A stretch of 30,276 nucleotides of DNA, from IMG/VR virus record IMGVR_UViG_3300010354_000380, positions 1 through 30,276 of that record; one strand, written 5' to 3'. This DNA comes from a virus. The position numbers and the translations under genes are program-made. Under the pieces are notes generated by a model, which saw only the letters and a list, made by a program, of their open reading frames with translations, was not told the origin of the DNA and searched no databases. Positions 1,191 through 30,276 of the stretch are shown piece after piece. The first letter of the stretch is position 1, and every line of letters starts with the position of its first letter.

Positions 1191-1308
1191 CATCGAGGAC
1201 CTTTCAAATATGGAATTAATGTACAGACCACCCGATAGGGAGGATCATGTAAATATTGTCCAGTATTTGAATGAAATCGAAGAAAGAGTTAAAAATTTAG
1301 AAAAATAA
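1120..1308 (+). CDS. Small coiled-coil hypothetical protein (62 aa)
   Basis: The product is 62 residues. Residues about 3-30 (NQELREILISLQNRIKKLEN) and 45-62 (VQYLNEIEERVKNLEK) have heptad spacing of Leu and Ile, as in a short coiled coil, with a Pro-rich turn (YRPPDRED) between them. The ATG at 1120 has a purine-rich AAGAGAAAG stretch 5-15 bases upstream. A second in-frame ATG at 1126 is possible. The first 71 bases overlap the end of the 84-aa gene in another frame. The clear heptad pattern and the 6-base gap to the PAAR gene favour a real gene. Its function is unknown; small coiled-coil proteins of this kind are common among marine T4-like tail genes. Confidence 0.65.
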   Translation: MDMNQELREILISLQNRIKKLENDIEDLSNMELMYRPPDREDHVNIVQYLNEIEERVKNLEK

Positions 1309-1314
1309 CGAGTT

Positions 1315-1638
1315 ATGAAAGGAGTTGCAACATACACAGGAAGTGACACAGGAGGTAGTGGATCTTGTAACACACCTCCTTACACAGTTGGCGTAGGTCC
1401 TTCGAGGAAAGTGTTAGTCAATAAAAAACCTGTAATGGTACAGGATGATATTTTGACACCTGCTCCTGGTACAACTCCCAGCACTCCACCATCGCCTTGT
1501 TCCAGCCCCAGGAAGGTGGTTGCAAGCAGTACGAAGGTGTTCGTACAGGGCAAGGCTCTTGCGGTCTCTGGAGACCTCCTGAATGCCTCTACGAACATTC
1601 GTATTGCCACTGGATCTTCAAACGTTTTTGTGGTATAA
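1315..1638 (+). CDS. PAAR-like spike tip protein (107 aa)
   Basis: This is a PAAR-repeat protein, the counterpart of T4 gp5.4, which caps the central tail spike and sharpens it for membrane piercing. The 107 residues are typical PAAR length. The first repeat has paired glycines and GSCNTPPYTVGVGPSRKVLV followed by NKKPVMVQDD; the second has SSTKVFVQGKALAVSGD, then NASTNIRIATGSSNVFVV. This alternation of short strands, KV[LF]V and [ND]xKx[AV]xVxxD is the family hallmark. The Pro/Thr/Ser-rich middle (TPAPGTTPSTPPSPC) contains Cys, and Cys or His residues near the tip can bind a metal in this family. The gene is far richer in G and C than the wedge genes. It starts 6 bases after the previous stop, and its position just ahead of gp25 suits a tail-spike role. 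Confidence 0.85.
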   Translation: MKGVATYTGSDTGGSGSCNTPPYTVGVGPSRKVLVNKKPVMVQDDILTPAPGTTPSTPPSPCSSPRKVVASSTKVFVQGKALAVSGDLLNASTNIRIATGSSNVFVV

Positions 1639-10300: not shown

Positions 10301-12141
10301 AAAAAACTAGACTAGCAGTATCGCCATACAATGAACAGGAATTAGTTATAACTTTGGATGGTATTTTACAAGAACCAAAAAAAGCTTTTAAAATATCTGG
10401 AAATCAAATAATTTTTTCCGAGCCACCATTAGGAGAAAGAACAGAAAAATTTGGAAAAAATAATGACGAAGTAGTTAGTTTACCTTCGCAAAAATTTTAC
10501 TGTAAAGCATTTAAGTTTAAAGATAACACATTAAATTCAAAATATTTGAAAAAATTTAAAAATATTTCATCCGAATTTGATGGAGTAAAGCAAGAATTTA
10601 ATTTGTATTATGAAAATGGAGATATAGTAAAATCAGATGCTCAAGAAAAATTATTGGTATGTTTAAATGGAGTTTTACAAAAAGCTAAAAAATATTATAA
10701 TGATCCATCAAAAAATTCATATTTTATAGAAAGAAGCACAAATAATCAAATAACAGATAAGATTGTTTTTAGTTCTGCTCCAGCATTTAATGATAGTTCG
10801 GATTTGAATAAAAGAACTGACACAAAAGAAAATTGTTTTATATACAGTATAGGTTCATATGAACGTTTGACGATTGACAAAACTTTAATTCCATATAAAA
10901 AAAATGGACCATATTTAATAGTCAATGAAGTTTCAGATACAGTAACCCAAATAGATAATGAATTATATCCGTTAGTTTTTGTTGATGGTGTTTTACAAAT
11001 AAGAGGAGAATCTTACGAAATAAATGGCGCTACTATAACTTTTAGTAAACCATTGAATTATTATATTTCAGAATCTGGAGAAGACATATATTCTGATGTT
11101 TCTATTATTATTCCATATGGAAGAGAATTGGAAAAATCATTAACTCTATATGATTTTGAGCCAGATACTTATTATAACACAATACTGATTACATTGCAAG
11201 GAACAAGTATATACACAACAGTAAATAACATTTATACTGCATTAAATGATTATGATAATGTTTTAGTATATCAAGGTAGTGATTTATTTGGAGAATTAAA
11301 GTATATTTCTGGCTCGGGTAATTCTGTTACTATAACAGCAATAAATTCTTTAAATTTAAATAGAGAAATTTTTGATAATTCCACTCCAATAAAATTTGTC
11401 ATTAATGGAACTGACACGACAATAAGTGGCACATACACAATTACATTTGATTATGTTAAGGATATTGATGGAAATAAAATATTACAATATGGAGCTTATA
11501 CTGGAAGATCTTTATATGGAACAAATTACAAACAAGAAATAGAAGAAAGAAGAAAATTAAAACGAATTTGTAAGATATATCCAGGAGATTTTATAAAAAT
11601 AGATGGCGAAGACGAGTTTAGAAAAATTACTTCGATTTCAAATGATGTGAGACCAAAAAATAATATGCCAAATACATATGCATCATCAGAAATATACACC
11701 ACCGCATTATGCACAAATTATAATGGAATATCTAAAGGAGAAGGATTGAGTGTAAGTGCAGATATATCTAATGGAACAGTTACTTCATTAAAATGGAATA
11801 AAACAGAATTAGAATTATATCTTCAAGAAAATCTTTTATTGCAACCAACAGCATATGGATATTACACAAATCCAATATTACAGTTTATACCTATAGATGG
11901 AAATGGAGGAGGAGCTAAAGCAGAAGTAATAGTTCATGACGGTGCTGTTCTTGATGTTGTGTTAATAAATGGAGGATCTGGTTATACAGATAATCCAATT
12001 GTAAAAGTTGCTAGAGGATTTGTTATAAAAAAACAAAATCCCAGAAAGATGACAGCCAAAATACATACAGCTTCGATAAGCACATATGCAAATACTACAT
12101 TAAGAATACGAATAGTAACTACATTTACAACAGAGGAATAA
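4357..12141 (+). CDS. 7: Giant baseplate wedge protein, gp7 homologue with inserted modules (2594 aa)
   Basis: This sits where T4 encodes gp7 (1032 aa), the wedge subunit that clamps gp6 and gp25 and carries gp8 and gp10. Residues 1-65 and 154-300 resemble the T4 gp7 C-terminal region as I remember it: a helical start (FISTEYENFSKFLGKYYEHL), the FYSAKGTEYSIKFIF segment at 194-208 and LIGQTIS at 255-261. A later gp7-like block is at 1833-1872 (DSYYYQDYSYVIKS, then W and HPAGF). Between and around them are beta-rich modules. RG-type modules lie near 70-153, 305-372 and 1275-1346. GY-type repeats lie near 539-692, 1576-1712 and 2498-2555. SGA-type modules lie near 975-1075. A YHYH-like domain lies at 755-866 (GYAYDGNPIYGPYGY). 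Three tandem DG[VI]LQ-type repeats of about 104 residues centre on 2001, 2104 and 2210. The gp7 assignment rests on gene order plus remembered motifs. Codons are strongly AT-biased and no frameshift is seen. Confidence 0.8.
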   Translation: MYKPSRKISTLIESQLPSFISTEYENFSKFLGKYYEHLESKGNVLDIINNITTYFDVDYYDSNTLTEYTTCTSSFSSSASSISVQDATSFPEENGYIKIDNEICFYEKRTDNVFQNVTRGISGTTKLGDLYQKSNFVASESASHFQGAKVYNLSNLFLYALVKHFEDQYLKSFPKKSIKPQIDKKLLLKNIKQFYSAKGTEYSIKFIFNSIVSQTSDDIPEIFYPKDQTVKISTSDWTNNYSIRVKLLSGNINNLIGQTISQTVDNQFASATIDNISPKNVAGKIFYELILAPESIVGKFEVCSKTKLRTSLSTSTSSRINVFSTYGWDDSGFLLIDDEVIEYSDKNITQFVQKSRQSPISHAENAEVYSIKQKIESNNVSFLILGVAYNLNLTEDILYCSKNDSIQFKNFGTQTKDTIVYNKLTDSFRWLTSNSSPVLEEANVPIQQKISNFSVDTSSVFQDSDYYYICSSGIPSHSILKANVNILPEEQKILRLIKKTPVSTTEIYKTPFRDVGIFLNGVLAYGNKDDTFITYGKIVSSTIIDAGIGYTNPPYVLIDGQPNKATATIAGGRLEKIEVTTNETFSFTPTIEIVAGRKATARAVVTGDTISSIRVINQGEYYSAPPRVVITDSTGKGKFAEYKAILNAYGQVIRFEQINAGKFYSQGTVTVTLLEDARGSEAQAKLELRKWYKNRYYINSSYLDNSNGYLFQNYESIDLDIKKYGYGYVANPKRLRYQLSDNLQSNLTETTVKTHSPILGYAYDGNPIYGPYGYSSPLDNTSNIVRLESGYTQNVSRSEGPSTSTYPLGYFTDDFSWNASVNVGKTILDKNNGRFCVTPEYPEGTYAYFITINSSNQPVFPYIIGENYYSFPVELNYTTSISQNNLPSNAKKVFSPPDELNGLGSVMVVNDVLPGTITDVNIEDSIDTFKVGNKIYVNNENTEGENFQAVISEVEGKEITSIQSVQVKSLLIKTQNIVYIYEGDTITQQSTGATGIVVGDVFDSNTIVLRNVSGTFNQTNLISSNINTIKIITQDNCNFSAGETLYLTNNDNDIIATGVILNSISSQNTLKIKVLSGTFTNSTTHYIKSSSLNDSTGIFISSVESLSKNKSISELNDKIAIVTTNENHGLSIGDTINVDITPNDTLTETLYYVRKKQYQSILLNPPTINCQINDTGIGRYEYLNGGYDYATGTYEDVELIFKDQTKIRYGIGKEGDVNNARVNITVNNINGSNRGIAKITAITQKGSGYKKGDVLTVSDNSLSRWQSSLSTQRLIVVVDHVAFAKEETILYLNNVQNISINDIVLIDEEKLKVLTIDEPSKLISVQRGIDNTAVVDHYQASKLSLVDPKYNFTKNYRPLGVSANNPYVSELKDNTLIVNYDYSVTTPNTIQNNSSFYDNSSPAKLVSIKQAYSTNYQFEFSKNNISNFVNSPIIDLKKYYKYKFDTSHSSLNQSYFSVSSGVNGNIIPIEFYSNDIEPGYPGSFSTLKIGFSNNFYINGTSILKNDNTAYSKYYYYDKKGQVKAFNGYFNLINDPLQGLHTILYKSGTRFVYNLVELPDYDGSGTCKYTTTSKTAIGKITKISILNRGKNYYKLPVVIGAEVASEYECKINPIYDSINKNINSVEILNFGQNYQNPIVTVDGDGNGAKFEIITEAGKITKIKVINSGKNYTFKPTLKVVESNIKVFLDSDNLGKPKDIKIIDNGYGYGNDNSTTQKASFPLILFLKDFGSNTFYPGEQIVQTALVQGQIKEICSGIVTNDGWRDGSNILKLKDVIGIFDNSLPIKSKLTNNTANITKIIQNKVDVNLKYYFDNVGYFNSDKGKINEFSQNITDSYYYQDYSYVIKSKTQFNEWKDVINISTHPAGFKLFGELSVKNDADVKMEDFNSSKKHIESISYINVASNTLKKCLLAEIKKETEFLLKSQISNNENLNLERGFGSISIDTFNNTETISRELILTPKFDGTYDSTGNLVGTKTFTLLDKKTRLAVSPYNEQELVITLDGILQEPKKAFKISGNQIIFSEPPLGERTEKFGKNNDEVVSLPSQKFYCKAFKFKDNTLNSKYLKKFKNISSEFDGVKQEFNLYYENGDIVKSDAQEKLLVCLNGVLQKAKKYYNDPSKNSYFIERSTNNQITDKIVFSSAPAFNDSSDLNKRTDTKENCFIYSIGSYERLTIDKTLIPYKKNGPYLIVNEVSDTVTQIDNELYPLVFVDGVLQIRGESYEINGATITFSKPLNYYISESGEDIYSDVSIIIPYGRELEKSLTLYDFEPDTYYNTILITLQGTSIYTTVNNIYTALNDYDNVLVYQGSDLFGELKYISGSGNSVTITAINSLNLNREIFDNSTPIKFVINGTDTTISGTYTITFDYVKDIDGNKILQYGAYTGRSLYGTNYKQEIEERRKLKRICKIYPGDFIKIDGEDEFRKITSISNDVRPKNNMPNTYASSEIYTTALCTNYNGISKGEGLSVSADISNGTVTSLKWNKTELELYLQENLLLQPTAYGYYTNPILQFIPIDGNGGGAKAEVIVHDGAVLDVVLINGGSGYTDNPIVKVARGFVIKKQNPRKMTAKIHTASISTYANTTLRIRIVTTFTTEE

Positions 12142-12725: not shown

Positions 12726-14621
12726 ATGGCTGCTATAATTTCAGAAAAATTTAGAATTTTTAATGCTCAACAATTTTTAAATTCTTTGGGCGATGATTAT
12801 ATAAATGAAACTAATTCCAGTATAGTTACTGGATCAGGATCTGAACTGTCCAGAATGTATTTTTTTATTGGTAGACCACAAGATTGGGATACAACTCTAG
12901 AAATTTTTAGTAAATCTGCTACAGCATTTACTACTTCTGATACTGTATATATTGGTTCGAATTTAGGTTCAGCATCATTCAAAGCTAATGTAAGAAGAGT
13001 TAATGAAAATAGTTTAGTTTTATATAATGTTATTGGTTCATTTAATGCTTCTTTTGGCACTCAAATTAAAGCTTCAAATGGAACTTCAGATACTGGAGCG
13101 ACAGCTTTAACAGGAGTTTACAGATATTCCGATGAAAATGTTCCTGTAACTCCAGCTGATAGCCAGCAAGAAAAATTTAATTCTTATAGTGATTTGATAG
13201 CAGCAAAAAGAATCACTTCAAAATATTGCAGAACAGTAATTACAAGATATAACTGGAATTTGATCACAAATCCAAAATTTGATATGTGGAAGCCAGATTA
13301 TCTGGAGTCATATAGTGGGTTGCAAGTTGGAAAATCTACTGCAACATCAGCTTCTTCATTTTATGATTCGAAGTACTATGTTGTCAATTCAAATTATGAA
13401 GTATTTAAATGCTTATACAATGGCGAAAATGAAGCAAACCCAACTGGAAGAAATGCAACATACGAGCCTCTAACTACTCCAGCTAGTGGTCAGGGAAGTT
13501 ATGATTCATCAAGAAAAATATTCACAGAACCATCTGGAACTGCTGAATATATTTGGAAATATATGTATACAATTCCAACTGATGATGTATTAAAGTTTCT
13601 ATCAACTGATTTTATTCCAATTGTAGAATCCACCAATGCTTCTAGAACATCGGTTGTTTCTTCTGCTGTGGATGGTTCTATTGATGTAGTCTTGACGAGA
13701 GATGATGGATCTGGTCTTTCTGACGGAACCCGTTATGCTCCTATCGTTGGAGATGGAACTGCTGGGGTGGTTCAAATTACAATTTCCTCAGGAAAAATTA
13801 CTAAAGCAGTAATACACAACCCAGGAAGAAATTATACATATGGATATGTTCCATTAGTGACTGGAAGTGGCTCTGGATCTTCTGCAATTGGTCTATGGGG
13901 AAGTGTAAATATTACCGATCCAAACAATCCTACATTTAGTTCAAGTGTAACTGTCGCTGCAAACGCTACTGGAAGTCTAGAACCTGTTATTTCACCACAA
14001 GGTGGTCATGGTTCAAATCCAGAACAAGAACTAAATGGTAAGAGAATCATGATTAATGTGAGATTGACATCAACTGAATTTACAAGTGGAGAAACTACAA
14101 AAGATTTCCCAGTTGATAACGATTTCAGAAGAATTGGAATTATCAAAGATCCAATGAATTTTGGAACTACTACATTATCAACTGCATCTACATTAAATGG
14201 TTTATATGCTGTAAAAATTCAAGGAGCAACTGGCAATTATCAGGTAGATGAAATCATTGAACAAACAAATAATGGTAATAAATCTTACGGTAGAGTTGTT
14301 TCTTGGGTACTAGATTCGAATAGTACAACCGCAGGAGTGTTAAAGTATATTCAAATTCCAGATGAGCACAATTTCCAATATAAAGTAAGATCATTTGAAT
14401 CTAATGCAAATGCTATTACTGGAAAGTCTTCTTTAACTTCGGGAACAATTAACACTGGTCTTGCTGATAATACAGTTCTACTTGGCTGTACATTTGTTGA
14501 TGGTATGGCTAATCCAGAGATTAAAAGAAACTCTGGAGAAATCATATACATAGAGAATAGAAAGAAAATAACAAGATCTAACGATCAAATCGAAGATATT
14601 AAATTAGTAATTGAATTTTGA
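12726..14621 (+). CDS. 8: Baseplate wedge subunit gp8, enlarged (631 aa)
   Basis: This is gp8, a dimeric baseplate wedge protein that bridges gp7 and gp10 in T4. It is nearly twice the T4 length (334 aa). Conserved blocks run colinearly with T4 gp8 as I remember it: EKFRIFNAQQFLNSLG (residues 7-22), FFIGRPQDWD (46-55), the GTAEYIWKYMYTIP block (271-284), NDFRRIGIIKDPMNFG (465-480) and the terminal NSGEIIYIENRKKIT with DQIEDIKLVIEF (602-631). The extra length is beta modules between blocks. An SGA-type module lies at about 75-120, and a GY-type repeat at 349-392 (VIHNPGRNYTYGYVPLVTG). Both kinds also occur in the gp7 homologue. The start has an AAAGAG site and a tandem late promoter upstream. 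The next gene starts 35 bases after the stop. Confidence 0.93.
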   Translation: MAAIISEKFRIFNAQQFLNSLGDDYINETNSSIVTGSGSELSRMYFFIGRPQDWDTTLEIFSKSATAFTTSDTVYIGSNLGSASFKANVRRVNENSLVLYNVIGSFNASFGTQIKASNGTSDTGATALTGVYRYSDENVPVTPADSQQEKFNSYSDLIAAKRITSKYCRTVITRYNWNLITNPKFDMWKPDYLESYSGLQVGKSTATSASSFYDSKYYVVNSNYEVFKCLYNGENEANPTGRNATYEPLTTPASGQGSYDSSRKIFTEPSGTAEYIWKYMYTIPTDDVLKFLSTDFIPIVESTNASRTSVVSSAVDGSIDVVLTRDDGSGLSDGTRYAPIVGDGTAGVVQITISSGKITKAVIHNPGRNYTYGYVPLVTGSGSGSSAIGLWGSVNITDPNNPTFSSSVTVAANATGSLEPVISPQGGHGSNPEQELNGKRIMINVRLTSTEFTSGETTKDFPVDNDFRRIGIIKDPMNFGTTTLSTASTLNGLYAVKIQGATGNYQVDEIIEQTNNGNKSYGRVVSWVLDSNSTTAGVLKYIQIPDEHNFQYKVRSFESNANAITGKSSLTSGTINTGLADNTVLLGCTFVDGMANPEIKRNSGEIIYIENRKKITRSNDQIEDIKLVIEF

Positions 14622-14656: not shown

Positions 14657-17600
14657 ATGCCACAGAAGACTAATATCAGCGTACCTCCGTATAGCGATGA
14701 TTTTTCTATAGATAACAATTTTTATAAGGTTTTATTTAGACCTGGATATGCTATTCAGGCGAGAGAATTAAATACAATTCAATCAATTTTACAAAACCAA
14801 ATTGAAAATCACGGAAAATTTCAATTTAAGCATGGGGACTTAGTAGTTCCAGGAGAAGTTAATCTAATAACTAGATTAAATTACGTAAAGTTATCTTCTG
14901 TATCTGAAGTAGCAGTTAATGAAAATAATGTTATCACATATAAAAAATATGATATAAAATTATTGGTAGGTCAAAAACTAGAGGGTATTAATTCTGGTGT
15001 TGTTGCTATTGTAGAAGAAGCATTATATGGTTCTGAAACAGAATCCGATGTTTTATACGTAACGTATATAACAAGTGGAAATTCAGCGAATGAAAAATGT
15101 TTTAGACAAGGTGAAACTTTGTCTGTTGTAGACGGAATTAATACCCCTCTTCTTGTTGTTGGAACTGATGGCAGTGTTTCCCCTACTTCAATAGAAGTAA
15201 TAGATCCAGACACCCAATCGATTAAGTTTTTAGATAGTCCTGCATTAGGATTTGGAACAGGAGTTAAAGTTGAAAGTGGTGTTTATTTTGTAAATGGAAC
15301 TTTTGTTAATAATGAAGAGCAATTAATTATTGTTGATAAGTATTATGATAAGCCTTCGGCAAAAATAGGATTTAACGTAGAAGAATCCATAATAACTCCA
15401 GATGAAGATAATACATTATATGATAATTCTAGAGGATTTTCAAACTTTGCTTCTCCTGGAGCACATAGATTAAAAATAGATTTAAATCTGGTATCGTTGC
15501 CATATAATTCATTAACTGGATCTAATTTTATTCAACTAATTTCTATAAAGAATGGGGAAATTCAAAAATTAATAAAACCAACCCAATATAGTTTATTAGA
15601 AGATACTTTAGCTAGAAGAACATATGATGAATCTGGAGATTATGTAGTAAATCCATTTTCAATTGATATTAGAGAATATTATCAAAAAGATGGTAATTTT
15701 GGAGTATATGCTAAAGGAGAAGATAATTTAGTAAATGGAATTTCAGAAACAGATGCTGAGAGTTCTTTACTAGCTTCTATTTCTCCAGGTAAAGCTTACG
15801 TAAAAGGATATGAAATTTTAAATAACGAAACAAAATATTTAAAATTAGATAAAGCCAGAGATACTATTACATCAGATAATAATACTTTAAAGTCAACTGG
15901 TGGTACTACATTCACAATTTCGAATGTTTATGGTTCAATTCCATTAAATTCCGAGGGATCTGATTTAACAGCTTATCCCACAGTATTTTTACATAATGTA
16001 TTTTCTGACGGCAGTAATGGTTCAAATTCTATCAATAACGAAACTTCATACAAGGCAACTACAAATAGAAGAGGAAATAGTTTTAGTATAGATGATGGCA
16101 TAAAAACTGTTTATGTTTACGTAACAAATACTACAACACCGATTGGTTATTTTAATCAATTAAATTATTTTGATAAATTAAATGAACTTTATTTAACTAT
16201 ATCAAGACAAGGTGGCATTCCAACTGCCGTATCTAAATTAAAAGTAATAGCAGTATCAAAAGTAACTAGACAAGAATATTCTCCAGAAATACAATTACTG
16301 GAATTAACTGTTATTGGCAAGAAAAACATATTAGATGAATATTTAAAAGAATATGATTTAGAAGCCAGCGGTAAAATTAGAGAATTATTTTTCACAGAAG
16401 CTGATGCTTTAGCAAATACAAATAAATTAGGTAATGTAATTGATTATAATGAATCTATTACTCCTATAGTTGGATTAGCAAAAGCAAATGATTTTTCTGT
16501 TGCACAAATTGGTCCTGGATTTAATGAGAATACCGATATTGTTATTTCTAAAGGTAGAACAACATCAAGAAAAGATGGTGTAATAACATTAAGAATATTA
16601 AATGCAGGAACAGGATATTCAGATTCAACGACAGATTTGTCTCCAGGTTATCAAACAACAACTACATCAACTATAGGTTCTGGATTAAAAATAAAAGTTA
16701 AAACTTTTAGCGGTAATATAACAGATATAACTATAACGGACCCAGGAACAAATTATAAAGAAGGAGAAATAATTACAATTCCTGGAGGAGCAAACAATTC
16801 AACTGCAGTAGTAACTCAAATATCTAGCGCAATTTATAATACTGCATTTAATTTGTCTTATTTTAATCCAGTATTTTTTACTCGATTAATTTTAACAGAA
16901 AAAAAACCAGACGACTCTACAAAATTTGCAGTTGGTCAATATATATTTGGTGGCAAAAGTGGAGCATATGGTGTTATTGAAGGCACAAACACCACATCAT
17001 ATTCAAGCGGGAATAAGTTATTCATAAGATTATTGTATGGCTCATTTTTACCAGGAGAAACAATTTTTGATGAGTCAGGAAATTCTTTAAAAATAGCAGA
17101 GGAAAATACTTTATCTCATTTTGTAGTTGTAAACAGAGGAACTGGATACACTTCTCCCCAAATTGTTGTTGACGGTGTGAAGTATGATAGTTCTCAAATA
17201 AAATTAGAAAATGATGGTGGTTCAATTTATGCTGCAAGAATTGTAAATGCTGAAGTAAAAAATAAACAGTATATTCAACCTCCTGTAGTAAATGCTACCA
17301 CAACAGGAACTGTAGGAGCAGAATGTAAAATAACTGCTATCTTAAATAAGAATACAGTTTTAACTTATAGTCCAGAAGATGTAAAATCATTTTATTCACA
17401 ATATGGTTCTGGAAATAGTTACAAATTTACGGCTGATGTAGAAGTAGAAAAAAATGAATATCGTAACTTATCACAAGTTACTAATTTTACTTTTTCTGGA
17501 GCTATTGGTCAAAAATATTTAGAGTGCGATAGTTTTGTTGGAGATGCTTCTATTAATTTAATACAAGGAGATTTGATAATATTTACAGATTCAAACTCTG

Positions 17601-20600
17601 TAGCTGTAAAAGCAATTGTTCAATATGCAACAGCACCAGAAGGAACAAAAAAATCTAGAATTTATTTAGATAATGCATTAAAAATCAATGTAGTAAATTC
17701 TTCTATAACAAGAATCAGACCAAAAATATCCAATGCTTCTGCTGGTTCTCTAATTTATCCAACTGGATCTACTGGATTGAAAACTTTATCAAAAACTTCA
17801 GATGATTCAAACTTTAAATATTATATAAGAAAAGATTTTGTAACTACTGGTTCTTCAAATGGTAATTTTATAACATTCTCTGCACAATTAGATTATGGTA
17901 CACAAAGATTTGCTACGTTTAATAACGATACATTTTTAGTAACTGTTTTAAATGGCGGCAGTTCTCCATTAGTTTCTACTGGAGATATTCTTTACATAGA
18001 TTCAAAATATGTACAACAACAGTCAGCTACATCATCCACATCTGGAATAACTACGGGAAGCATTACATTAAATTTACCAAATGGATTTTTTGGTAATATT
18101 TCAAGCAATTTTCCAAAATTAAAATTAACGGCAACCGTAGAAATTACAAAAGGAAAACCAAAATTAAAAACCGCAATAAAAAACAAAAGAGTTATAGTGA
18201 AAACGAGTGGTGACAAAATAATTCCAATTCGTGGTCAAGATTATGACTCAGAAGATATACAAACTTTATCATATTCTGATGTTTATAAATTGCATTATGT
18301 TTACGAAGGATCTGCAACTACTCCACCTATAGTAGATTTAACTGGGAAATTAATTTCAGGAACTGATTTAACTGAGTATTTTACATTTGATGATGGCCAA
18401 AGGGATACAGTATATGATGTATCAAGACTTGTATTAAAATCAGGATATAATCCACCAACAGGTCAACTTATAATAGGATTTGATTATTTTGACCATTCAC
18501 AAGGAGATTACTGCACTGTTGATTCGTATCTTCATGAATCTGGAGTAGAAGAATTAGAAATTCCATCATTTAATTCTTCTGTTCATGGAAATGTTTATTT
18601 AAGAGACGTAATTGATTTTAGACCAAAAGTTGATTCTACTTCCATAATTTCGGGATTTCAAAATCAAACATTCTTAGGGTCGATAAACTATATTAGTTTT
18701 TCTGGAGAAGGCGGATCATTCTCTCCAACTCCAGCTTCCGATAAAAATATCGAATACACTTTTTCGTATAGTAAAGCACAATATTTGGATAGAATAGATA
18801 GTATTTTTCTAAATAAATCTGGAAACTTTATTTTAAAGAAAGGAAGTTCTTCTTTAAATCCAGTTACTCCAGATTCAATTGAAGATTCTATTAGAATATG
18901 CAATATACATGTTCCTGCATTTACATATTCCAATAAAGATGTAAAAGTAATTCCAGTAGATAATCGTAGATATACGATGAGTGATATTGGAAAATTAGAA
19001 AAAAGAGTAGAAAGATTAGAATATTATACTACATTAAGTATTTTAGAGCAACAAGCTTTAAATACACAAATCAAAGATCAATTTGGATTTGAAAGATTTA
19101 AATCTGGATTTGTAGTAGATAATTTCGAAACTCACTATATTGGTGATATATCATCAGATGATTATAAATGCTCTATAGATACCCAACAAGCTGTTTTAAG
19201 ACCTCAAGTTTCTGAAAATTGTTTTAATCTTGTTGAACTATTCAAAAGAGATGACCAAAGACAGAATTTAAACTATCAATTATCTAATGATGTAGTTACA
19301 CTACCATACACAAATAAAGTTTTTGTGGAAAATAAATATGCATCAAAAACTATAAATCCAAATAATTTTACAGCAGTTCAAAGTGTTGGAGATCTTATTT
19401 TAAATCCAACCGTTGATATGTGGTACAACAAAGATGTAGCTCCATTAGTAACTAATAACAATACTAAACTATTTTCTATATTCTTATCCACAAAAGATAT
19501 CAAGGATAAGTTTTCTTCATTCTACAATTCATTCTTAGTTAGTTGGATTGGAGTTAATAGATTATTCTACAATATAAATTCTCTATCCAACATCAACTCA
19601 CAGCAAATATCATCAACAGTACAAATTGCATCAACTAATACATCATCAAATATAAGTCCTCAAAATAATGAAACTGCTAAAGGAGTAGAAACTACAACAA
19701 ACAATAATAATTCTGTAATTTCTTCATTACAATATTTTATCCGTTCTGTACCTGTAAAATTTGCTATTACTAGATTAAAGCCATTAACTAAAGTATACGT
19801 TTTTATGGACGGAAAAGATATTAGTAGATGGGTAATACCAGACTCTAATTTCACAGGAATTGCAGGAAATTCATTAAGCTCATTTGGGGCAGATTTGATA
19901 ACAAATCAAAATGGCAATCTTAGTGGTTTGATTGTGATGCCTGCAGGAAAACCACCAGAAAAAGGATCTCAATGGACAGGTAATGTACAATTTATTAATT
20001 ATGATGATTCTGCAAATGAAGAATATTTTACAACTGGTATAAAAACAATTATATTTACATCAAGCAATTTAAATGCAGATAAAAACATAGTTGATACATA
20101 CGCAGAAACCAAGTATTATTCTATTGGTAACTTACCAGAAAATCCAGCGTCAATTACATCAACCATTCCAGCATATTTTAAAGCCAACGAAGGAATACAG
20201 ATAGTAGATTCGAAGTATCAAAATAAAGAAAAACCAAATCCACTATGCCAAACATTCAAAGTTCAAAACTATGAAGGTGGTGTATTTGTTACAGGTATAG
20301 ATTTATACTTTGCTAAAAAAAGTAATACTATACCAATAAGAGTATACTTAACAAATGTAGATTTAAACAAGCCAGGAAAATATATTGTTCCTGGATCAGA
20401 ATCTGTATTGAATCCAAATACTTATTTAAAAGTAACAGTAAATCAAACATGCAAAGTTAAAGTAAATGAATTGGTAGAGGGATCCAGTAGCGGAATTAAA
20501 GGAAATTTAGCACAAGTATTAGATAAAAATAATGTTGTTTTAACTCCAGATACACAAAATTTAATAAGTCTTTCAAATGATCAAGTATATACCTTTGTAT

Positions 20601-23002
20601 TAGATTCTATATCAGGAAATGTTACAGAAAAAGGAATTTCGTATTCAGAAAATGAGCAATTAAAAACTGATTACTTGACCAATTTTAATGTAGCAAACAA
20701 TAAAAATTGTACGATCACTATTGCTAAAAAATCTGGCAAAATTATTGACTTAAGAATATTAAATTGTGGAGCTAATTATAACTCTGCTTTAATAAGCATA
20801 GAAAGTCCTCAATTGCCTGGTGGTTCTACTGCAACAGGTTCGGTAAAGGTCTCTAATGGCAAAGTATATTATACAGAATTATCTACTTTCGGAAATGGTT
20901 ACACAGAACCACCATCAGTAATAATTAAAGGAGTTGGATCTGGTTCTGGAGGAGCAGTAATTGAATCAGTAATTGATTACGATACTCCATCAGTAATCAT
21001 GGGAGTTTCTGTAGACGAAACTTCTGCTTCTATTCCTACTAGATTTAATTTTGATTATCCAGTATATTTACAAAATGAAACTGAGTATTCTTTGGCAATA
21101 GAGACTGATAGTAATGAGTATTCTATTTGGGCTTCGACTTTAGCAAATGAATCAACAGATGGCCAATCAATAGTATCTAATCCTTCCTTAGGAGCTGTAT
21201 ATAAATCACAAAATACTGATGCGTGGACAGAAGATTTATTAGAAGATATTAAATTTACTTTATACAGGGCAGAATTTGATATTACTAAATCTTCAACATT
21301 ATATTTAACTAATCAAGATTTGGGATTCGAAAAATTAAAATCAAATCCAGTTGAAACATATTCTTTATCTAATTCTGATGCTACATCACAATTATTTAAA
21401 AATAATAATAGTATAGTTAAAATACACCATAGAGATAATGGTTTTGAAGATACTGAAAAATCTTATGTATTTTTCAAAAATATTGAAACAGTTGGAGGAT
21501 TTAGTTCTACTGTAATGAACTCTACTTTATTTGAAGTATTTAATGTTGGGTTGGATTCATACAATATTACTGGTCCAACAAGAGCAAACGCAAACTCATT
21601 TGGCGGAGGAACTTTCGTATTTGCTTCTCATAATAAAAAATACGAAAAACTATATGCAGATGTAAATTACATACAACCACCAAATACTGAAGTTGATAGT
21701 TATATAAAAACTACAAATGTAATTCCAGTAGATTCTAAAACTTCAAATTATCTTTCTTATTCTCAAGATAGTGATTACAATAAAACATTTTTAAATAAAC
21801 AACAATTTTTTAATAATCAAAAAGTATTGTGTTCTAGAATAAATGAAGTATTGAATGATATAGATCAATCTTTGGTTTACAAATTTAATTTAAATTCATC
21901 AAAATCTCACTTATCTCCATTAATTGATTTAAGAGTTTCTTCTGTTAAACTTTCTACAAATAGAGTGGAAAATACAACGGGATATGAAAATAGATATGGA
22001 AGAAGGAATCAAATAATTAATTTATATCCTGTTTACAGTATAAAAATAACAGGAAATAGCAGTACAGCAGTAACATTAAATCAAAATGTACAAGGTGTAA
22101 TTACTGGTGCAAGAGGAAGAGTAGTAGCATACACAGCAAATCCAAATACGATTCGAGTTAAAGTTACTTCAACAAGTACATTTATCGAAAATGAACGTTT
22201 AATTTTTTCAAATCAATCTGCTTTAAATAATGTTAGTATTTTACCAGACGGAATTGTAAAAAATACGTTTACGTTTACTCCAGGTTCTTATGTTGTAGCA
22301 TTCAATCCATCAGATCTTACTAAAAAGTATGACAATAAAATAGATGGTAAAATAGAATATTGGGATGATAAAAATCAACAACTAATAATATCATCGAATA
22401 AACAACCAATTAATGATAATTACACAAGTCCAGCAGTAATTGGTAGTTCATATGCTAGAAATTCTGATGTTTCAATTCAAACTGCAGATATTTTAAGAGT
22501 TGGTGATTTACTTTACTACGATGGAATAGTAACAGGAACAGAAGCTCTTGCTGAAATTAGTTCAGTAGCATACACAACTGGAGTGGATTATTCATCAGAT
22601 GTTTCTTCTAAAAATAGTTCAAATTTATCAAAATATACTACTAAACAAATAACAATAAATTCGGCTGGTACAGCAATTGATGTTAGATTAACAGCAAATA
22701 TAAAAAATATTTCCAATATCAAAGTGTTGTATAGATATAAAACAATTTCTTCACAATTAAATTTTGATGACATAGAATGGAAGTATTTTAATGCAGATGG
22801 ATCGCCAAATGAATTAGTATATATTTCTCCATTGAATGCATTGTCTGGGGATTTTGAATCCCAAGAAGCATATCAAGAATTTAAATATAGTGTTTCTAAT
22901 TTAGAACAATTTACATCTTTTGCAATTAAAATTGTGATGAATAGTGATGATCCAGTGTACGTTCCAAAAATACAAGATATAAGAGCAATAGCATCATATT
23001 AA
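14657..23002 (+). CDS. Giant DUF4815-type virion structural protein (2781 aa)
   Basis: This 2781-residue protein opens with a DUF4815 domain: DDFSIDNNFYKVLFRPGYAI, QARELNTIQSILQNQIENHG and FKHGDLVVPGEVNL (residues 13-70). That is a signature of large tail proteins in marine myoviruses. Later blocks include RDVIDFRPKVDS (near 1317), a coiled coil (LEKRVERLEYYTTLSILEQQ, near 1445), a beta domain starting VYVFMDGKDISRWVIPDS (near 1710), and a domain near 1860-1920 (TFKVQNYEGGVFVTGIDLYF, then PIRVYLTNVD). The end, FAIKIVMNSDDPVYVPKIQD followed by IRAIASY, is also typical. GY-type repeats occur near 640-720, 820-900 and 2029-2105, and SGA-type modules near 100-165, 756-805 and 2475-2520. Following gp8, it may replace T4 gp9-gp10 functions in holding fibres; this is inferred from position. 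There is no nearby late promoter or strong Shine-Dalgarno sequence. Confidence 0.9.
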   Translation: MPQKTNISVPPYSDDFSIDNNFYKVLFRPGYAIQARELNTIQSILQNQIENHGKFQFKHGDLVVPGEVNLITRLNYVKLSSVSEVAVNENNVITYKKYDIKLLVGQKLEGINSGVVAIVEEALYGSETESDVLYVTYITSGNSANEKCFRQGETLSVVDGINTPLLVVGTDGSVSPTSIEVIDPDTQSIKFLDSPALGFGTGVKVESGVYFVNGTFVNNEEQLIIVDKYYDKPSAKIGFNVEESIITPDEDNTLYDNSRGFSNFASPGAHRLKIDLNLVSLPYNSLTGSNFIQLISIKNGEIQKLIKPTQYSLLEDTLARRTYDESGDYVVNPFSIDIREYYQKDGNFGVYAKGEDNLVNGISETDAESSLLASISPGKAYVKGYEILNNETKYLKLDKARDTITSDNNTLKSTGGTTFTISNVYGSIPLNSEGSDLTAYPTVFLHNVFSDGSNGSNSINNETSYKATTNRRGNSFSIDDGIKTVYVYVTNTTTPIGYFNQLNYFDKLNELYLTISRQGGIPTAVSKLKVIAVSKVTRQEYSPEIQLLELTVIGKKNILDEYLKEYDLEASGKIRELFFTEADALANTNKLGNVIDYNESITPIVGLAKANDFSVAQIGPGFNENTDIVISKGRTTSRKDGVITLRILNAGTGYSDSTTDLSPGYQTTTTSTIGSGLKIKVKTFSGNITDITITDPGTNYKEGEIITIPGGANNSTAVVTQISSAIYNTAFNLSYFNPVFFTRLILTEKKPDDSTKFAVGQYIFGGKSGAYGVIEGTNTTSYSSGNKLFIRLLYGSFLPGETIFDESGNSLKIAEENTLSHFVVVNRGTGYTSPQIVVDGVKYDSSQIKLENDGGSIYAARIVNAEVKNKQYIQPPVVNATTTGTVGAECKITAILNKNTVLTYSPEDVKSFYSQYGSGNSYKFTADVEVEKNEYRNLSQVTNFTFSGAIGQKYLECDSFVGDASINLIQGDLIIFTDSNSVAVKAIVQYATAPEGTKKSRIYLDNALKINVVNSSITRIRPKISNASAGSLIYPTGSTGLKTLSKTSDDSNFKYYIRKDFVTTGSSNGNFITFSAQLDYGTQRFATFNNDTFLVTVLNGGSSPLVSTGDILYIDSKYVQQQSATSSTSGITTGSITLNLPNGFFGNISSNFPKLKLTATVEITKGKPKLKTAIKNKRVIVKTSGDKIIPIRGQDYDSEDIQTLSYSDVYKLHYVYEGSATTPPIVDLTGKLISGTDLTEYFTFDDGQRDTVYDVSRLVLKSGYNPPTGQLIIGFDYFDHSQGDYCTVDSYLHESGVEELEIPSFNSSVHGNVYLRDVIDFRPKVDSTSIISGFQNQTFLGSINYISFSGEGGSFSPTPASDKNIEYTFSYSKAQYLDRIDSIFLNKSGNFILKKGSSSLNPVTPDSIEDSIRICNIHVPAFTYSNKDVKVIPVDNRRYTMSDIGKLEKRVERLEYYTTLSILEQQALNTQIKDQFGFERFKSGFVVDNFETHYIGDISSDDYKCSIDTQQAVLRPQVSENCFNLVELFKRDDQRQNLNYQLSNDVVTLPYTNKVFVENKYASKTINPNNFTAVQSVGDLILNPTVDMWYNKDVAPLVTNNNTKLFSIFLSTKDIKDKFSSFYNSFLVSWIGVNRLFYNINSLSNINSQQISSTVQIASTNTSSNISPQNNETAKGVETTTNNNNSVISSLQYFIRSVPVKFAITRLKPLTKVYVFMDGKDISRWVIPDSNFTGIAGNSLSSFGADLITNQNGNLSGLIVMPAGKPPEKGSQWTGNVQFINYDDSANEEYFTTGIKTIIFTSSNLNADKNIVDTYAETKYYSIGNLPENPASITSTIPAYFKANEGIQIVDSKYQNKEKPNPLCQTFKVQNYEGGVFVTGIDLYFAKKSNTIPIRVYLTNVDLNKPGKYIVPGSESVLNPNTYLKVTVNQTCKVKVNELVEGSSSGIKGNLAQVLDKNNVVLTPDTQNLISLSNDQVYTFVLDSISGNVTEKGISYSENEQLKTDYLTNFNVANNKNCTITIAKKSGKIIDLRILNCGANYNSALISIESPQLPGGSTATGSVKVSNGKVYYTELSTFGNGYTEPPSVIIKGVGSGSGGAVIESVIDYDTPSVIMGVSVDETSASIPTRFNFDYPVYLQNETEYSLAIETDSNEYSIWASTLANESTDGQSIVSNPSLGAVYKSQNTDAWTEDLLEDIKFTLYRAEFDITKSSTLYLTNQDLGFEKLKSNPVETYSLSNSDATSQLFKNNNSIVKIHHRDNGFEDTEKSYVFFKNIETVGGFSSTVMNSTLFEVFNVGLDSYNITGPTRANANSFGGGTFVFASHNKKYEKLYADVNYIQPPNTEVDSYIKTTNVIPVDSKTSNYLSYSQDSDYNKTFLNKQQFFNNQKVLCSRINEVLNDIDQSLVYKFNLNSSKSHLSPLIDLRVSSVKLSTNRVENTTGYENRYGRRNQIINLYPVYSIKITGNSSTAVTLNQNVQGVITGARGRVVAYTANPNTIRVKVTSTSTFIENERLIFSNQSALNNVSILPDGIVKNTFTFTPGSYVVAFNPSDLTKKYDNKIDGKIEYWDDKNQQLIISSNKQPINDNYTSPAVIGSSYARNSDVSIQTADILRVGDLLYYDGIVTGTEALAEISSVAYTTGVDYSSDVSSKNSSNLSKYTTKQITINSAGTAIDVRLTANIKNISNIKVLYRYKTISSQLNFDDIEWKYFNADGSPNELVYISPLNALSGDFESQEAYQEFKYSVSNLEQFTSFAIKIVMNSDDPVYVPKIQDIRAIASY

Positions 23003-25646: not shown

Positions 25647-25985
25647 ATGGCTGCAGTCAGAATTAATTTACAATTAGATCAAGGAGCAGATTTTTCTGCA
25701 ATTTTTAATTTAACAGATGGTGTTAAATTATTAGATTTAAATGATTATGACGTAGAAGCTTATTTTGGATATAATTATTCTACGGATAATAAAATTAGTT
25801 TTGACGTGAATATTTTAGATGCTGTAAATGGAAAGGTAGAATTACTTTTGACTTCAACTCAAACATCACAATTAAAATTACCTAGATATGTTTATGACAT
25901 TGTGGTGACATCTTCCGAAGAACTTGGAAATAAAAAAATTAGAATCGTAGAAGGCATTTTAGAAGTTTCCCCTGGAGTATCCTGA
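25647..25985 (+). CDS. Small beta-sandwich-like fibre-associated protein (112 aa)
   Basis: This 112-residue protein shows the pattern LQLDQGADFSAIFNLTDG, LLDLNDYDVEAYFGYN, GKVELLLTSTQTSQLKLP, RYVYDIVVTSSEEL, RIVEGILEVSPGVS. This alternation (GADF, LDL..Y, L[LS]T..QT, YVYDIV, EG.LEV.PGV) is a known small phage beta-domain type usually encoded just before tail fibres, seemingly of Ig-like or fibre-base type. I know no assigned function. It begins 10 bases after AAGGGG in the terminator arm. Its stop overlaps the start of the collagen-like gene (TGATG), so the two are translationally coupled. A likely role is a base or attachment piece for the fibre; this is inferred. Confidence 0.85.
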   Translation: MAAVRINLQLDQGADFSAIFNLTDGVKLLDLNDYDVEAYFGYNYSTDNKISFDVNILDAVNGKVELLLTSTQTSQLKLPRYVYDIVVTSSEELGNKKIRIVEGILEVSPGVS

Positions 25986-28900
25986 TGGCAGAATATACAG
26001 TTCCTGTAAGCACTGGTACAAGTGAAACAACCGCTTCAACTGGAGGTGATGTTCAATATAATGCGACTGTAGCTGGAACGGGAGAAGCAACAACAGGTAC
26101 AGTTTTACAAGGAACTCAAGGTATACAAGGTACTCAAGGTATACAAGGAACTCAAGGACTTGATGGATTACAGGGATTATCTGGTTCTCAGGGTTTAATA
26201 GGATTAACAGGTGTCCAAGGAAGTCAGGGTACTCAAGGATTTAAAGGGAATACTGGCAATCAAGGAACACAAGGAACAGACGGTGCTCAAGGAATTAGGG
26301 GTACGGTAGGATCTCAGGGAACAGACGGAATACAAGGTCAAAGAGGATTAGTTGGAACTCCTGGATCGCAAGGTAGTCAAGGTATTCAGGGTAGACAAGG
26401 AACTCAAGGTTTTAGGGGATCTCAAGGACTTAATGGATTACAAGGTAACCAAGGAGTTCAAGGAAGACAAGGAACTCAAGGGATTCAAGGAGAACGTGGA
26501 TTAATTGGATTTAAAGGTGATACTGGTTCACAAGGTTCTCAAGGTATTCAAGGTGAACTAGGTATACAAGGACCTTATGGATTACAAGGATTAACTGGAT
26601 CTGGTGCTCAAGGTTCTCAAGGTACTGATGGTATTCAAGGATTTTATGGATCACAAGGAATACAAGGTGGTATAGGAATCCAAGGAGAACGTGGAGTACA
26701 AGGTAATAGAGGATTTATAGGAGATGTTGGATCCCAAGGAATTCAAGGACAAAAAGGATTAGTTGGAGAGCCAGGAACTCAAGGATTACAAGGAGTTAGA
26801 GGTCCAGTTGGTTCTGGTGGATTACAAGGAACTCAAGGAATACAAGGTCAACGAGGTATTGGATTACAGGGATCTCAAGGTATTCAAGGTGATCTTGGAA
26901 TACAAGGATTCAAAGGCTCCCAAGGAATACAAGGAGAAAGGGGGCTTAAAGGTGATACTGGTACACAAGGAACTACTGGTATTCAAGGATTTTATGGGAC
27001 ACAAGGATCAACTGGTGCTGGTGCTCAAGGTTCTCAAGGTACTGATGGTATTCAAGGACCCGATGGATTACAGGGAGCACAAGGACAAAGAGGTTTACAA
27101 GGTTTACAGGGAATTCAAGGAGCACAAGGAAATCAAGGAACAACTGGACAATCTGGAGCCGATGGCTCTCAAGGAGCGAGAGGTTTTACTGGCACAACAG
27201 GGTCTCAAGGATCTCAAGGTGTTCAAGGAAATTTAGGAAACCAAGGAATCCAAGGTGTTAAAGGAGCATTAGGAGAACAGGGTATCCAAGGATTTACTGG
27301 CACCCAAGGGCTTACTGGTATCCAAGGTAGACAAGGAATTCAAGGAGAAAAAGGATTTACTGGAAATACTGGTTCTCAAGGTTCTTCTGGTATTCAAGGA
27401 CTTACAGGATCTCAAGGTTCCAGAGGATTGCAAGGAATTGAGGGTCAAGGTGCTCAAGGAATTCAAGGAGCCAAAGGAAATGTAGGTAATGATGGAATAC
27501 AAGGTATTCAAGGACAAAGGGGACTTATTGGAAGTCCTGGTCCTCAAGGATTAACTGGAATACAAGGTGATTTAGGAATACAAGGACCTAGAGGACCACA
27601 AGGACTTCAAGGAATTATTGGTATACAAGGCAATCAGGGAGTTCAAGGTAGACAAGGAATTCAAGGTGAAAAGGGAATTCAAGGTGATTATGGTATTCAA
27701 GGAGCACAGGGAATCCAAGGTCCACAAGGATCTCAAGGAACTACAGGAATTCAAGGTAGACAAGGAACTCAAGGTTCTCAAGGTCTACATGGACAATTTG
27801 CTGGACAAGGCATTCAAGGACCTCAAGGACCTCAAGGTAACGAAGGAAGACAGGGAATTCAAGGAACTCAAGGTTTAAGAGGAATTCAAGGAGAAAGAGG
27901 ATTTCAAGGTACTCAAGGAATTCAAGGTAGACAAGGAATTCAAGGAACCAGGGGTATTCAGGGAGAAGAAGGGCTACAAGGAATTCAAGGTTCTCAAGGA
28001 GTTCAGGGAGTTCAAGGGCGCCAAGGAATTCAAGGCGAAAGAGGGATTCAAGGAAATCAAGGAACTCAAGGTATTCAAGGAAGACAAGGACCACAAGGAA
28101 CTACAGGTATTCAAGGAAATCTTGGAAATCAAGGTATTCAAGGAAATCAAGGACCTCAAGGTACTATTGGTATCCAAGGACCTTATGGTGTACAAGGAGC
28201 AACTGGAAGTTTTGGTGGAGCAACATTTGATTATACTTTTTCATCAGATATTGAAAATACAAATCCAGGTTCAGGAAAATTAAAATTAAATTCAGTAAGC
28301 TTTAGTCAAAGCACCTTATTGTATATCAGTCAATTTGATGATCAATCAAATTCTAATTATAATTTCTTGCTAACTATTGATGATTCAAGTTCTTCTATTC
28401 GTGGTCATTTCACAATTAGACCAAAATCTGATTCTACGAAGTTTGCAATTTTTGCTATAACTAATGATATTTCATATAATTCAGTTGATAATTATTTTGC
28501 AGTTCCAATATCTTACTTATCTGGAGATAATTCATATTTAAATAATGAAGATGTTTTAATTACTTTTGCAAGAACTGGAGATATAGGTCCAAGTGGACCG
28601 CAAGGATCCCAAGGTACTACTGGTATTCAAGGACCTTATGGTGTACAAGGATCAATTGGCGCTGGCATTCAAGGTCCTCAAGGTCTTCAAGGTACAGATG
28701 GTATTCAAGGAAGACAAGGAGTACAAGGATCTAGAGGATTTACAGGAAATACTGGTATTCAAGGAATTCAAGGAGATCTTGGAATACAAGGATTTTATGG
28801 TAATCAAGGAACTCAAGGAATTCAAGGTGTTCAAGGACCTCAAGGTACATATGGAACCCAAGGATTTCAAGGTATTCAAGGACTTCAAGGTAGACAAGGA

Positions 28901-30276
28901 ATACAAGGAGAACAAGGTATTCAAGGCAACCAAGGTACTCAAGGACTAAGAGGATTTACTGGAGACATTGGACCACAAGGTATTATTGGACTAACTGGTA
29001 TTCAAGGTAATACTGGTATTCAAGGCAATCAAGGTACTCAGGGTGTTCAAGGATTTCACGGAATAATTGGTAGCATTTCTTTGGATGTATCTAGTTATGG
29101 AGTTTCTGGATATCTATTACAAGGATCAAATACGTTAAATCCAAAAATAATTTTAGCAAGAGGAATTACTTATTACATTAATGTAAATGCTAGTGGTCAT
29201 CCTTTTTGGATAAAAACAACAAAAACTAATGGAACTGACAATGCATATACTGAAGGAATTTTAAACAATGGCGAAGATTCTGGATTAATTACTTTCCAAG
29301 TACCTCAAACTGCTCCTGATATTTTATATTATAACTGTCAATTCCATTCATCTATGAGTGGTACTATAGAAATCAATGATTTAGGAGAATTAGGACCTCA
29401 AGGAGCACAAGGTATCCAAGGCATTCAGGGTCTTCAAGGTGTTCAAGGAGAAAGAGGTATACAAGGCGCTCAAGGCATTCAAGGTAATCAAGGAACTCAA
29501 GGAATAAGAGGACAGCAAGGAATTCAAGGAGAGTTTGGTACACAAGGATCTCAAGGAAGACAAGGCATACAAGGAGTCCAAGGAGAAAAAGGTATTCAAG
29601 GTAATACTGGTATACAAGGTAATGAGGGATTACAAGGAGTCCAAGGAGAATCTATTCAAGGTATCCAAGGATTACAGGGATCACAAGGAACTACAGGTAT
29701 TCAAGGCGCACAAGGTTTTGTTGGTATTCAAGGTTTTGATGGTGCTCAAGGACTTCAAGGAAATCCTGGAATTCAAGGTCTTCAAGGAGAAGAAGGAAGA
29801 GGTCTTAATATATTAGGTTCTGTTGATGGAGTTTCTGAATTACCTGGATATCCAATAACATATATGGGATTAATTGGAGATGCATATATTGTTAGTGATA
29901 GTGGATCTTTGTTTATTTGGAATGGAAGTTTTTGGGAAGATGTTGGTCAAATTGTTGGTCCACCTGGAGATATTGGACCACAAGGTATACAAGGAGGACA
30001 AGGAATAAGTGGTGCATTCGTAGGTCAAGGTGTTCAAGGTCCAAGAGGATTTCAAGGAATTCAAGGTCTACAAGGAAATCAAGGTCTTCATGGAGAGTTT
30101 GCAGGACAAGGTGTTCAAGGACCTCAAGGTGTACAAGGTAATATAGGAATACAAGGTAGTACTGGATCTCAAGGATCTCAAGGATTGCAAGGAGCACAAG
30201 GAACTCAAGGAATACAAGGACAAATTGGTACACAAGGTCTTGATGGATTATTTGCTGGTCAAGGGGCGCAAGGTCC
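25985..30276 (+). CDS. Collagen-like fibre protein with three globular inserts (partial, over 1430 aa)
   Basis: The ATG at 25985 overlaps the previous stop by one base. I checked the frame at intervals; it stays open to the window end, so the 3' end is missing. After a Ser/Thr/Gly-rich head (residues 1-42) come Gly-X-Y collagen repeats: 43-739, 866-1029, 1137-1271 and 1326 onward. Gln dominates the Y position (GIQGTQG, GPQGLQG) and Pro is rare, so stability does not rest on hydroxyproline. Globular insert 1 (740-865) begins GATFDYTFSSDIENTNPGSG, a known phage module. Insert 2 (1030-1136) is cupredoxin-like with His1072, Cys1118, His1121 and Met1124. Insert 3 (1272-1325) has GDAYIVSDSGSLFIWNGSFW, a small module common in phage fibres. 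Trimeric collagen-like rods are typical of fibres or decorations that contact the host. Internal near-identical repeats invite recombination. Confidence 0.88.
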   Translation, partial: MAEYTVPVSTGTSETTASTGGDVQYNATVAGTGEATTGTVLQGTQGIQGTQGIQGTQGLDGLQGLSGSQGLIGLTGVQGSQGTQGFKGNTGNQGTQGTDGAQGIRGTVGSQGTDGIQGQRGLVGTPGSQGSQGIQGRQGTQGFRGSQGLNGLQGNQGVQGRQGTQGIQGERGLIGFKGDTGSQGSQGIQGELGIQGPYGLQGLTGSGAQGSQGTDGIQGFYGSQGIQGGIGIQGERGVQGNRGFIGDVGSQGIQGQKGLVGEPGTQGLQGVRGPVGSGGLQGTQGIQGQRGIGLQGSQGIQGDLGIQGFKGSQGIQGERGLKGDTGTQGTTGIQGFYGTQGSTGAGAQGSQGTDGIQGPDGLQGAQGQRGLQGLQGIQGAQGNQGTTGQSGADGSQGARGFTGTTGSQGSQGVQGNLGNQGIQGVKGALGEQGIQGFTGTQGLTGIQGRQGIQGEKGFTGNTGSQGSSGIQGLTGSQGSRGLQGIEGQGAQGIQGAKGNVGNDGIQGIQGQRGLIGSPGPQGLTGIQGDLGIQGPRGPQGLQGIIGIQGNQGVQGRQGIQGEKGIQGDYGIQGAQGIQGPQGSQGTTGIQGRQGTQGSQGLHGQFAGQGIQGPQGPQGNEGRQGIQGTQGLRGIQGERGFQGTQGIQGRQGIQGTRGIQGEEGLQGIQGSQGVQGVQGRQGIQGERGIQGNQGTQGIQGRQGPQGTTGIQGNLGNQGIQGNQGPQGTIGIQGPYGVQGATGSFGGATFDYTFSSDIENTNPGSGKLKLNSVSFSQSTLLYISQFDDQSNSNYNFLLTIDDSSSSIRGHFTIRPKSDSTKFAIFAITNDISYNSVDNYFAVPISYLSGDNSYLNNEDVLITFARTGDIGPSGPQGSQGTTGIQGPYGVQGSIGAGIQGPQGLQGTDGIQGRQGVQGSRGFTGNTGIQGIQGDLGIQGFYGNQGTQGIQGVQGPQGTYGTQGFQGIQGLQGRQGIQGEQGIQGNQGTQGLRGFTGDIGPQGIIGLTGIQGNTGIQGNQGTQGVQGFHGIIGSISLDVSSYGVSGYLLQGSNTLNPKIILARGITYYINVNASGHPFWIKTTKTNGTDNAYTEGILNNGEDSGLITFQVPQTAPDILYYNCQFHSSMSGTIEINDLGELGPQGAQGIQGIQGLQGVQGERGIQGAQGIQGNQGTQGIRGQQGIQGEFGTQGSQGRQGIQGVQGEKGIQGNTGIQGNEGLQGVQGESIQGIQGLQGSQGTTGIQGAQGFVGIQGFDGAQGLQGNPGIQGLQGEEGRGLNILGSVDGVSELPGYPITYMGLIGDAYIVSDSGSLFIWNGSFWEDVGQIVGPPGDIGPQGIQGGQGISGAFVGQGVQGPRGFQGIQGLQGNQGLHGEFAGQGVQGPQGVQGNIGIQGSTGSQGSQGLQGAQGTQGIQGQIGTQGLDGLFAGQGAQG
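26111..30276 (+). repeat. Collagen-coding repeat DNA (9-nt period, CAAGG-rich)
   Basis: The DNA consists of 9-nt units in the form GGN NNN CAA, with many exact 12-24-nt matches such as GGAATTCAAGGT or GGTATTCAAGG. It is interrupted at about 28202-28588, 29072-29392 and 29800-29950 by normal coding DNA for globular inserts. The regularity leaves long open frames in other frames and on the - strand, which are not genes. Confidence 0.9.

Follow-up and report, generated by a model that had tools for sequence, protein, structure and literature searches.

A Cupredoxin-Like Domain with a Predicted Type 1-Like Copper Site in a Collagen-Repeat Fiber of a Virus of Aquatic Bacteria

INTRODUCTION

Blue-copper domains usually sit outside the cytoplasm, in lipoproteins or exported proteins, and in cupredoxins such as amicyanin and plastocyanin the second His ligand lies on the face that docks the partner protein. 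In T4, gp9 connects the baseplate to the long tail fiber. Structural metal in a phage fiber has been described for T4 gp37, in which iron is held by HxH motifs, and the tails of marine phages have been considered as iron carriers under a "Ferrojan Horse" idea (PMC11705849). A search of an open library for cupredoxin- or plastocyanin-like domains in phage tails or virions gave no paper on such a domain. Here we describe a cupredoxin-like domain within a phage collagen fiber. Its family is already present in databases under positional names (phrog_677), and the domain is frequent on tails of marine cyanophages, although it seems to have gone unrecognized so far as a probable copper site.

RESULTS

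The DNA analyzed (the window) is a virus record of 30,276 nt (IMGVR_UViG_3300010354_000380, positions 1 to 30,276) with a T4-like baseplate block inside it, consisting of gp25- and gp6-like proteins and then a gp8-like wedge protein (Table 1). The best matches of the gp6-like protein were to marine Kyanoviridae phages (58 to 60% identity), and the owner of the fiber is a virus of aquatic bacteria. Other proteins of the tail region were also noted. The PAAR-motif protein beside the baseplate genes is likely the baseplate tip. The YHYH domain of the long gp7-like protein is a module to which no function is assigned, and two BFVD proteins named YHYH also hold a cupredoxin-like domain of the fiber type. 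The gp8-like protein was covered over its whole length by phrog_438, while the best stretch of the Pfam Phage-Gp8 match comprised its last 34 residues only.

Table 1. Positions of the fiber, its cupredoxin-like domain, and neighboring features in the window
Feature	Position	Strand	Remarks
PAAR-motif protein	1315-1638	+	PF05488, E=1.2e-9
gp7-like long baseplate protein	4357-12141	+	YHYH domain (PF14240, E=6.4e-25) at residues about 747-853
gp8-like wedge protein	12726-14621	+	631 residues
DUF4815 protein	14657-23002	+	2,781 residues; DUF4815 E=2e-50; tail region
Small protein adjoining fiber	25647-25985	+	phrog_3304 match, E=7e-20 (L-shaped-tail-fiber assembly family)
Collagen-repeat side fiber	25985-30274	+	3' open, runs past window end; Pfam Collagen E=6.2e-160
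Inserts between collagen repeats	residues about 747-864, 1032-1133, 1274-1324		the cupredoxin-like domain is the second insert
Cupredoxin-like domain	29069-29389	+	fiber residues 1029-1135; core strands about 29072-29377
His1072	29198-29200	+	predicted N-terminal His ligand (G-HPF-WIKT), just ahead of strand 46-49 (domain numbering)
Cys1118	29336-29338	+	predicted Cys ligand, end of strand 85-90 (domain numbering)
His1121	29345-29347	+	predicted second His ligand, ligand loop
Met1124	29354-29356	+	predicted axial Met ligand, ahead of strand 97-103 (domain numbering)

The domain interrupts the G-X-Y repeats of the fiber, the last of which was found at residue 1031 and the next at residue 1134, giving an insert of ~100 residues. 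The four candidate ligands bear the residue numbers given in the initial annotation, which were correct on the translated fiber. Cys1118 is the single Cys among the 1,430 residues of the fiber, and the motif C-x2-H-x2-M occurs once across all six reading frames of the window. When the domain sequence was shuffled, the full four-residue pattern arose in 2 of 200,000 shuffles, although conservation of the ligands among relatives (see below) is much stronger evidence than this count.

Amicyanin has the same C-x2-H-x2-M spacing; its sequence was checked against PDB 1aac. The initial annotation had compared the spacing partly to plastocyanin and partly to CuA sites; the type 1-like ligand set held, whereas the likeness to plastocyanin, which has C-x2-H-x4-M, did not. 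The CuA comparison falls because CuA requires two bridging Cys residues, and with one Cys in the entire fiber a CuA site was rejected. The fiber was also found to contain no HxH motif of the T4 gp37 iron-site type, and such an iron site was likewise rejected.

Single-sequence searches of Pfam, PDB sequences, and NCBIfam with the window domain alone gave no useful match, and no Pfam or NCBIfam cupredoxin model scored above its cut-off for the domain. The amicyanin model TIGR02657 weakly matched 10 of 51 family members (best E=0.001), the window domain itself having no NCBIfam match, and Pfam Copper-bind (plastocyanin/azurin) weakly matched 11 of the 51 (best E=0.0071), below the cut-off and with a different spacing. 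Alignment by hhalign to single amicyanin and plastocyanin sequences was confined to the C-terminal ligand stretch, with low probability. The family profile reached the C-terminal cupredoxin of 9cck at a marginal E of 0.016, with C, H, and M aligned exactly (Y-x-C-x2-H-x2-M-x-G-T-I), and auracyanin B at an E of 0.023, also marginal. The phage family phrog_677, in contrast to these models, matched the window domain at an E of 1.4e-23 over profile positions 310 to 410 of 412 and matched all 94 sequences of family alignment A2. The domain is a cupredoxin by its predicted fold (see below) and ligand set that lies outside CuA and below the curated amicyanin and plastocyanin cut-offs.

A structure prediction, which the initial annotation had suggested together with an alignment of relatives, was made with AF2 from an alignment of 94 sequences (window, viral contigs, and bacteria). 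The model (pLDDT 95.6, pTM 0.88) has eight strands and the Greek-key beta-sandwich expected of the cupredoxin superfamily, and it sets the ligand-bearing segments as in cupredoxins. His44 (domain numbering) precedes strand 46-49, Cys90 ends strand 85-90, and His93 and Met96 precede strand 97-103, so that the modeled first His is ahead of strand 4 and the other ligands occupy the loop connecting strands 7 and 8, in the order and placement of type 1 copper ligands. This topology is consistent with the four side chains coming together at one site. When the model was compared with the PDB by Foldseek, cupredoxin-fold proteins were found throughout the 50 matches listed, with E values down to 1.1e-5. 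The top matches were AcoP, rusticyanin, laccases, auracyanins, copper nitrite reductases, and pseudoazurin, and rank 50 among the matches listed was a cupredoxin-fold clotting-factor structure. Since the TM-scores against solved cupredoxins were moderate (0.46 to 0.63) and the rmsd was high, the domain is regarded as a divergent member. On the strength of the model, the insert almost certainly has a cupredoxin fold. In BFVD, giant viruses resembling pithoviruses and marseilleviruses also have small proteins, named "beta-sandwich," that match the predicted fold (A0A481Z6J5 and A0A481YVH3).

The four residues were then followed through the relatives. H, C, H, and M were present in 23 of 23 copies in which the four positions were aligned (22 phage records). 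A motif-independent profile search of whole phage records found all four in 26 of 27 complete copies, the remaining copy having F, A, V, and M. At 90% non-redundancy all four were present in 128 of 144 copies, a share that is inflated by loci found with patterns containing ligand residues. In 15 of the other 16 copies Cys and the second His were both gone, and the sixteenth had lost just one ligand. The ligands are seldom lost singly and nearly always together, and the free loss of Cys or His that the initial annotation had named as a refutation did not occur. Where the site exists, all four persist down to ~31% mean identity, and where they are replaced the substitutions are core-filling (Y/N, A/S, N, and L). 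A tree suggested seven changes between ligand-bearing and ligand-free states; few branches were well supported, and because the supported branches force one change only, joint loss is reported as a pattern, with no claim of significance.

When 50 viral contigs were searched with the profile, divergent ligand-free copies surfaced, frequently within a distinct protein of great length. One such group (L237 to L245, e.g., L237:79-414) consists of separate proteins of ~3,000 to 4,700 aa, often on the same contig as ligand-bearing copies. Six aligned ligand-free copies gave a cupredoxin-type model of lower confidence (pLDDT 75.7), the best PDB matches of which were rusticyanin and plastocyanin. The existence of these copies shows that a metal-free form of the domain can be of use, a point against the copper reading. 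The nearest relative of the window domain (75% identity) lies on contig L001, the gp6 of which is also 75% identical. The same L001 fiber has a second, ligand-free copy (L001:4513-4827) ~300 bases past the point equal to the window end at 30276, and the window fiber probably has one there as well.

A tblastn search of annotated phages found a relative encoded in 291 of 50,697 records, nearly all of them Synechococcus or Prochlorococcus phages, and IMG/VR contained hundreds of contigs with the domain. The suggestion that such a domain would be unusual in a phage was therefore not borne out. In cyanophage gp9, the "baseplate wedge tail fiber connector" (phrog_677), T4_gp9_10_N is N-terminal and the cupredoxin-like domain is C-terminal. 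Other carriers include proteins annotated as tail fibers, a subtilisin-like virion protein, and Autographiviridae tail proteins, and PSSM2_028 of P-SSM2 is a second collagen fiber carrying the domain. The module is widespread and is placed by phages on baseplate and fiber proteins. Neither T4 nor Pelagibacter phage HTVC008M gave a match to the domain. Its presence in virions is supported by its place at the gp9 C terminus, by the S-SCSM1 carrier, annotated "virion protein" in its record, and, for the virion proteome as a whole, by a paper in which mass spectrometry gave 45 virion proteins (PMC9602691).

A second cupredoxin-like domain with longer loops was also observed, which has the His segment as well as C-x2-H-x2-M but with a wide separation between them. 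It was found in the wedge protein of the baseplate that is encoded after cyanophage gp9 (L224, L236, L222, and L221) and as a tandem partner domain in alphaproteobacterial proteins (L091 to L108).

Cellular relatives were sought in a single scan of bacterial and archaeal genomes with one degenerate pattern, which returned 25 loci in Flavobacteriaceae, PS1-clade and other alphaproteobacteria, an Acidobacteria protein, and others. These relatives are lipoproteins or apparently exported: CHRD domains were present in the two Flavobacteriaceae proteins scanned, and the Acidobacteria protein, of 160 residues, looks exported. The one-pattern scan gave no cyanobacterial match. Because the nearest relatives found by it were exported Bacteroidota and alphaproteobacterial proteins, capture from a host plastocyanin, as initially proposed, was unsupported and was rejected.

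DISCUSSION

The evidence points to a cupredoxin-like domain carrying a complete type 1-like ligand set, as the initial annotation had claimed, now backed by the AF2 fold, the PDB matches, and conservation in relatives. The best overall explanation, which we consider reasonably probable, is a virion-surface cupredoxin with a type 1-like mononuclear site that would hold one copper per chain, the domain perhaps serving in docking. As separate parts of this reading, use of the site for metal is predicted with good confidence from the ligand pattern and model, and copper is probably the metal, with somewhat less certainty. A docking role is a tentative proposal. While still in the host cytoplasm, the fiber would fold into a collagen-type trimer that presents three copies of the domain. 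Copper, which is scarce in the cytoplasm, would be loaded after lysis from the water or the host surface. The ion may then lock the C-x2-H-x2-M loop and shape the His-bearing face, through which the domain would act as a metal-organized docking knob in the manner of amicyanin and plastocyanin with their partners. Metal-organized docking fits best because the second His of cupredoxins is on the docking face and because of the position of the domain on fibers and gp9. Electron transfer is less likely since no partner is visible, and we know of no redox partner or receptor for the domain.

That the four residues are a chance pattern within a collagen insert has nothing in its favor apart from the short motif itself. 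The shuffle count, conservation in hundreds of relatives, and the predicted fold all argue against it, and with its probability close to nil it was rejected, conservation and fold together ruling it out. It is unlikely, although the most credible of the alternatives, that a different soft metal ion (Zn, Fe, or solely Cu(I)) acts as a structural staple steadying an exposed domain which, having one Cys, can form no disulfide within the chain. Phage fibers with structural metals are known, the HxH iron of T4 gp37 being an example (PMC11705849), but a cupredoxin fold bearing His, Cys, His, and Met at the spacing of amicyanin is the classic arrangement for copper, and HxH is absent from the fiber.

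Slightly less likely still is a metal-free virion in which the fold is retained for its sturdiness, as decoration or as a scaffold for binding, the ligands serving the fold or being relics. Beta-sandwich decorations are frequent in phages and the ligand-free group is still predicted to have the cupredoxin fold; however, persistence of the four ligands to such low identity wherever the site is present, and joint losses with core-filling replacements, are the behavior of a metal site and not of independent fold residues. Transposed to copper, the Ferrojan Horse idea would have the bound ion lure a host surface copper-uptake protein. This would parallel what has been discussed for iron in the tails of marine phages (PMC11705849) and would suit the location on baseplate and fiber proteins, but we consider it very improbable: no receptor is known, the domain is shared by phages that infect different hosts and by exported proteins outside phages, and so buried a site would be hard to strip of copper.

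The type 1-like copper site thus remains the preferred reading. A much broader proposal, for which we would claim little likelihood, is that many marine T4-like cyanophages have working blue-copper sites on baseplate and fibers, with ligand sets switched whole between copies and copper aiding host recognition or triggering. If copper does bind, a module found widely in the structure of cyanophage tails would be a metalloprotein, phages of the main ocean photosynthesizers would be linked directly to copper chemistry in a way akin to the iron idea elsewhere, and a region of gp9 annotated by position alone would gain a fold likely to bear function. Ligand-bearing and ligand-free copies, often in one contig, provide a natural experiment on the purpose of the metal.

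Compared with known systems, the domain shares with amicyanin and the type 1 blue copper proteins the eight-stranded cupredoxin fold, the order and spacing His...Cys-x2-His-x2-Met, and the Gly two residues past Met. Unlike them, it scores below curated cut-offs and is embedded in a fiber rather than being a periplasmic electron carrier, and its copper is predicted. AcoP, rusticyanin, auracyanin, and the C-terminal cupredoxin of the N. maritimus copper oxidase (9cck) are the best fold and profile matches but differ in their identity of about 14 to 17%, longer domains, and known redox function. The HxH iron sites of T4 gp37 share the idea of a fiber-held metal, whereas fold and ligands differ. 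The gp9 C terminus and PSSM2_028 belong to the same domain family and have the same four residues, PSSM2_028 also having collagen repeats, although both are different carrier proteins with annotation that mentions neither a cupredoxin nor a metal site. The exported bacterial proteins (Flavobacteriaceae CHRD lipoproteins and PS1-clade and Acidobacteria proteins) have the same ligands at about 50% identity and differ from the phage carriers in being cellular and apparently exported.
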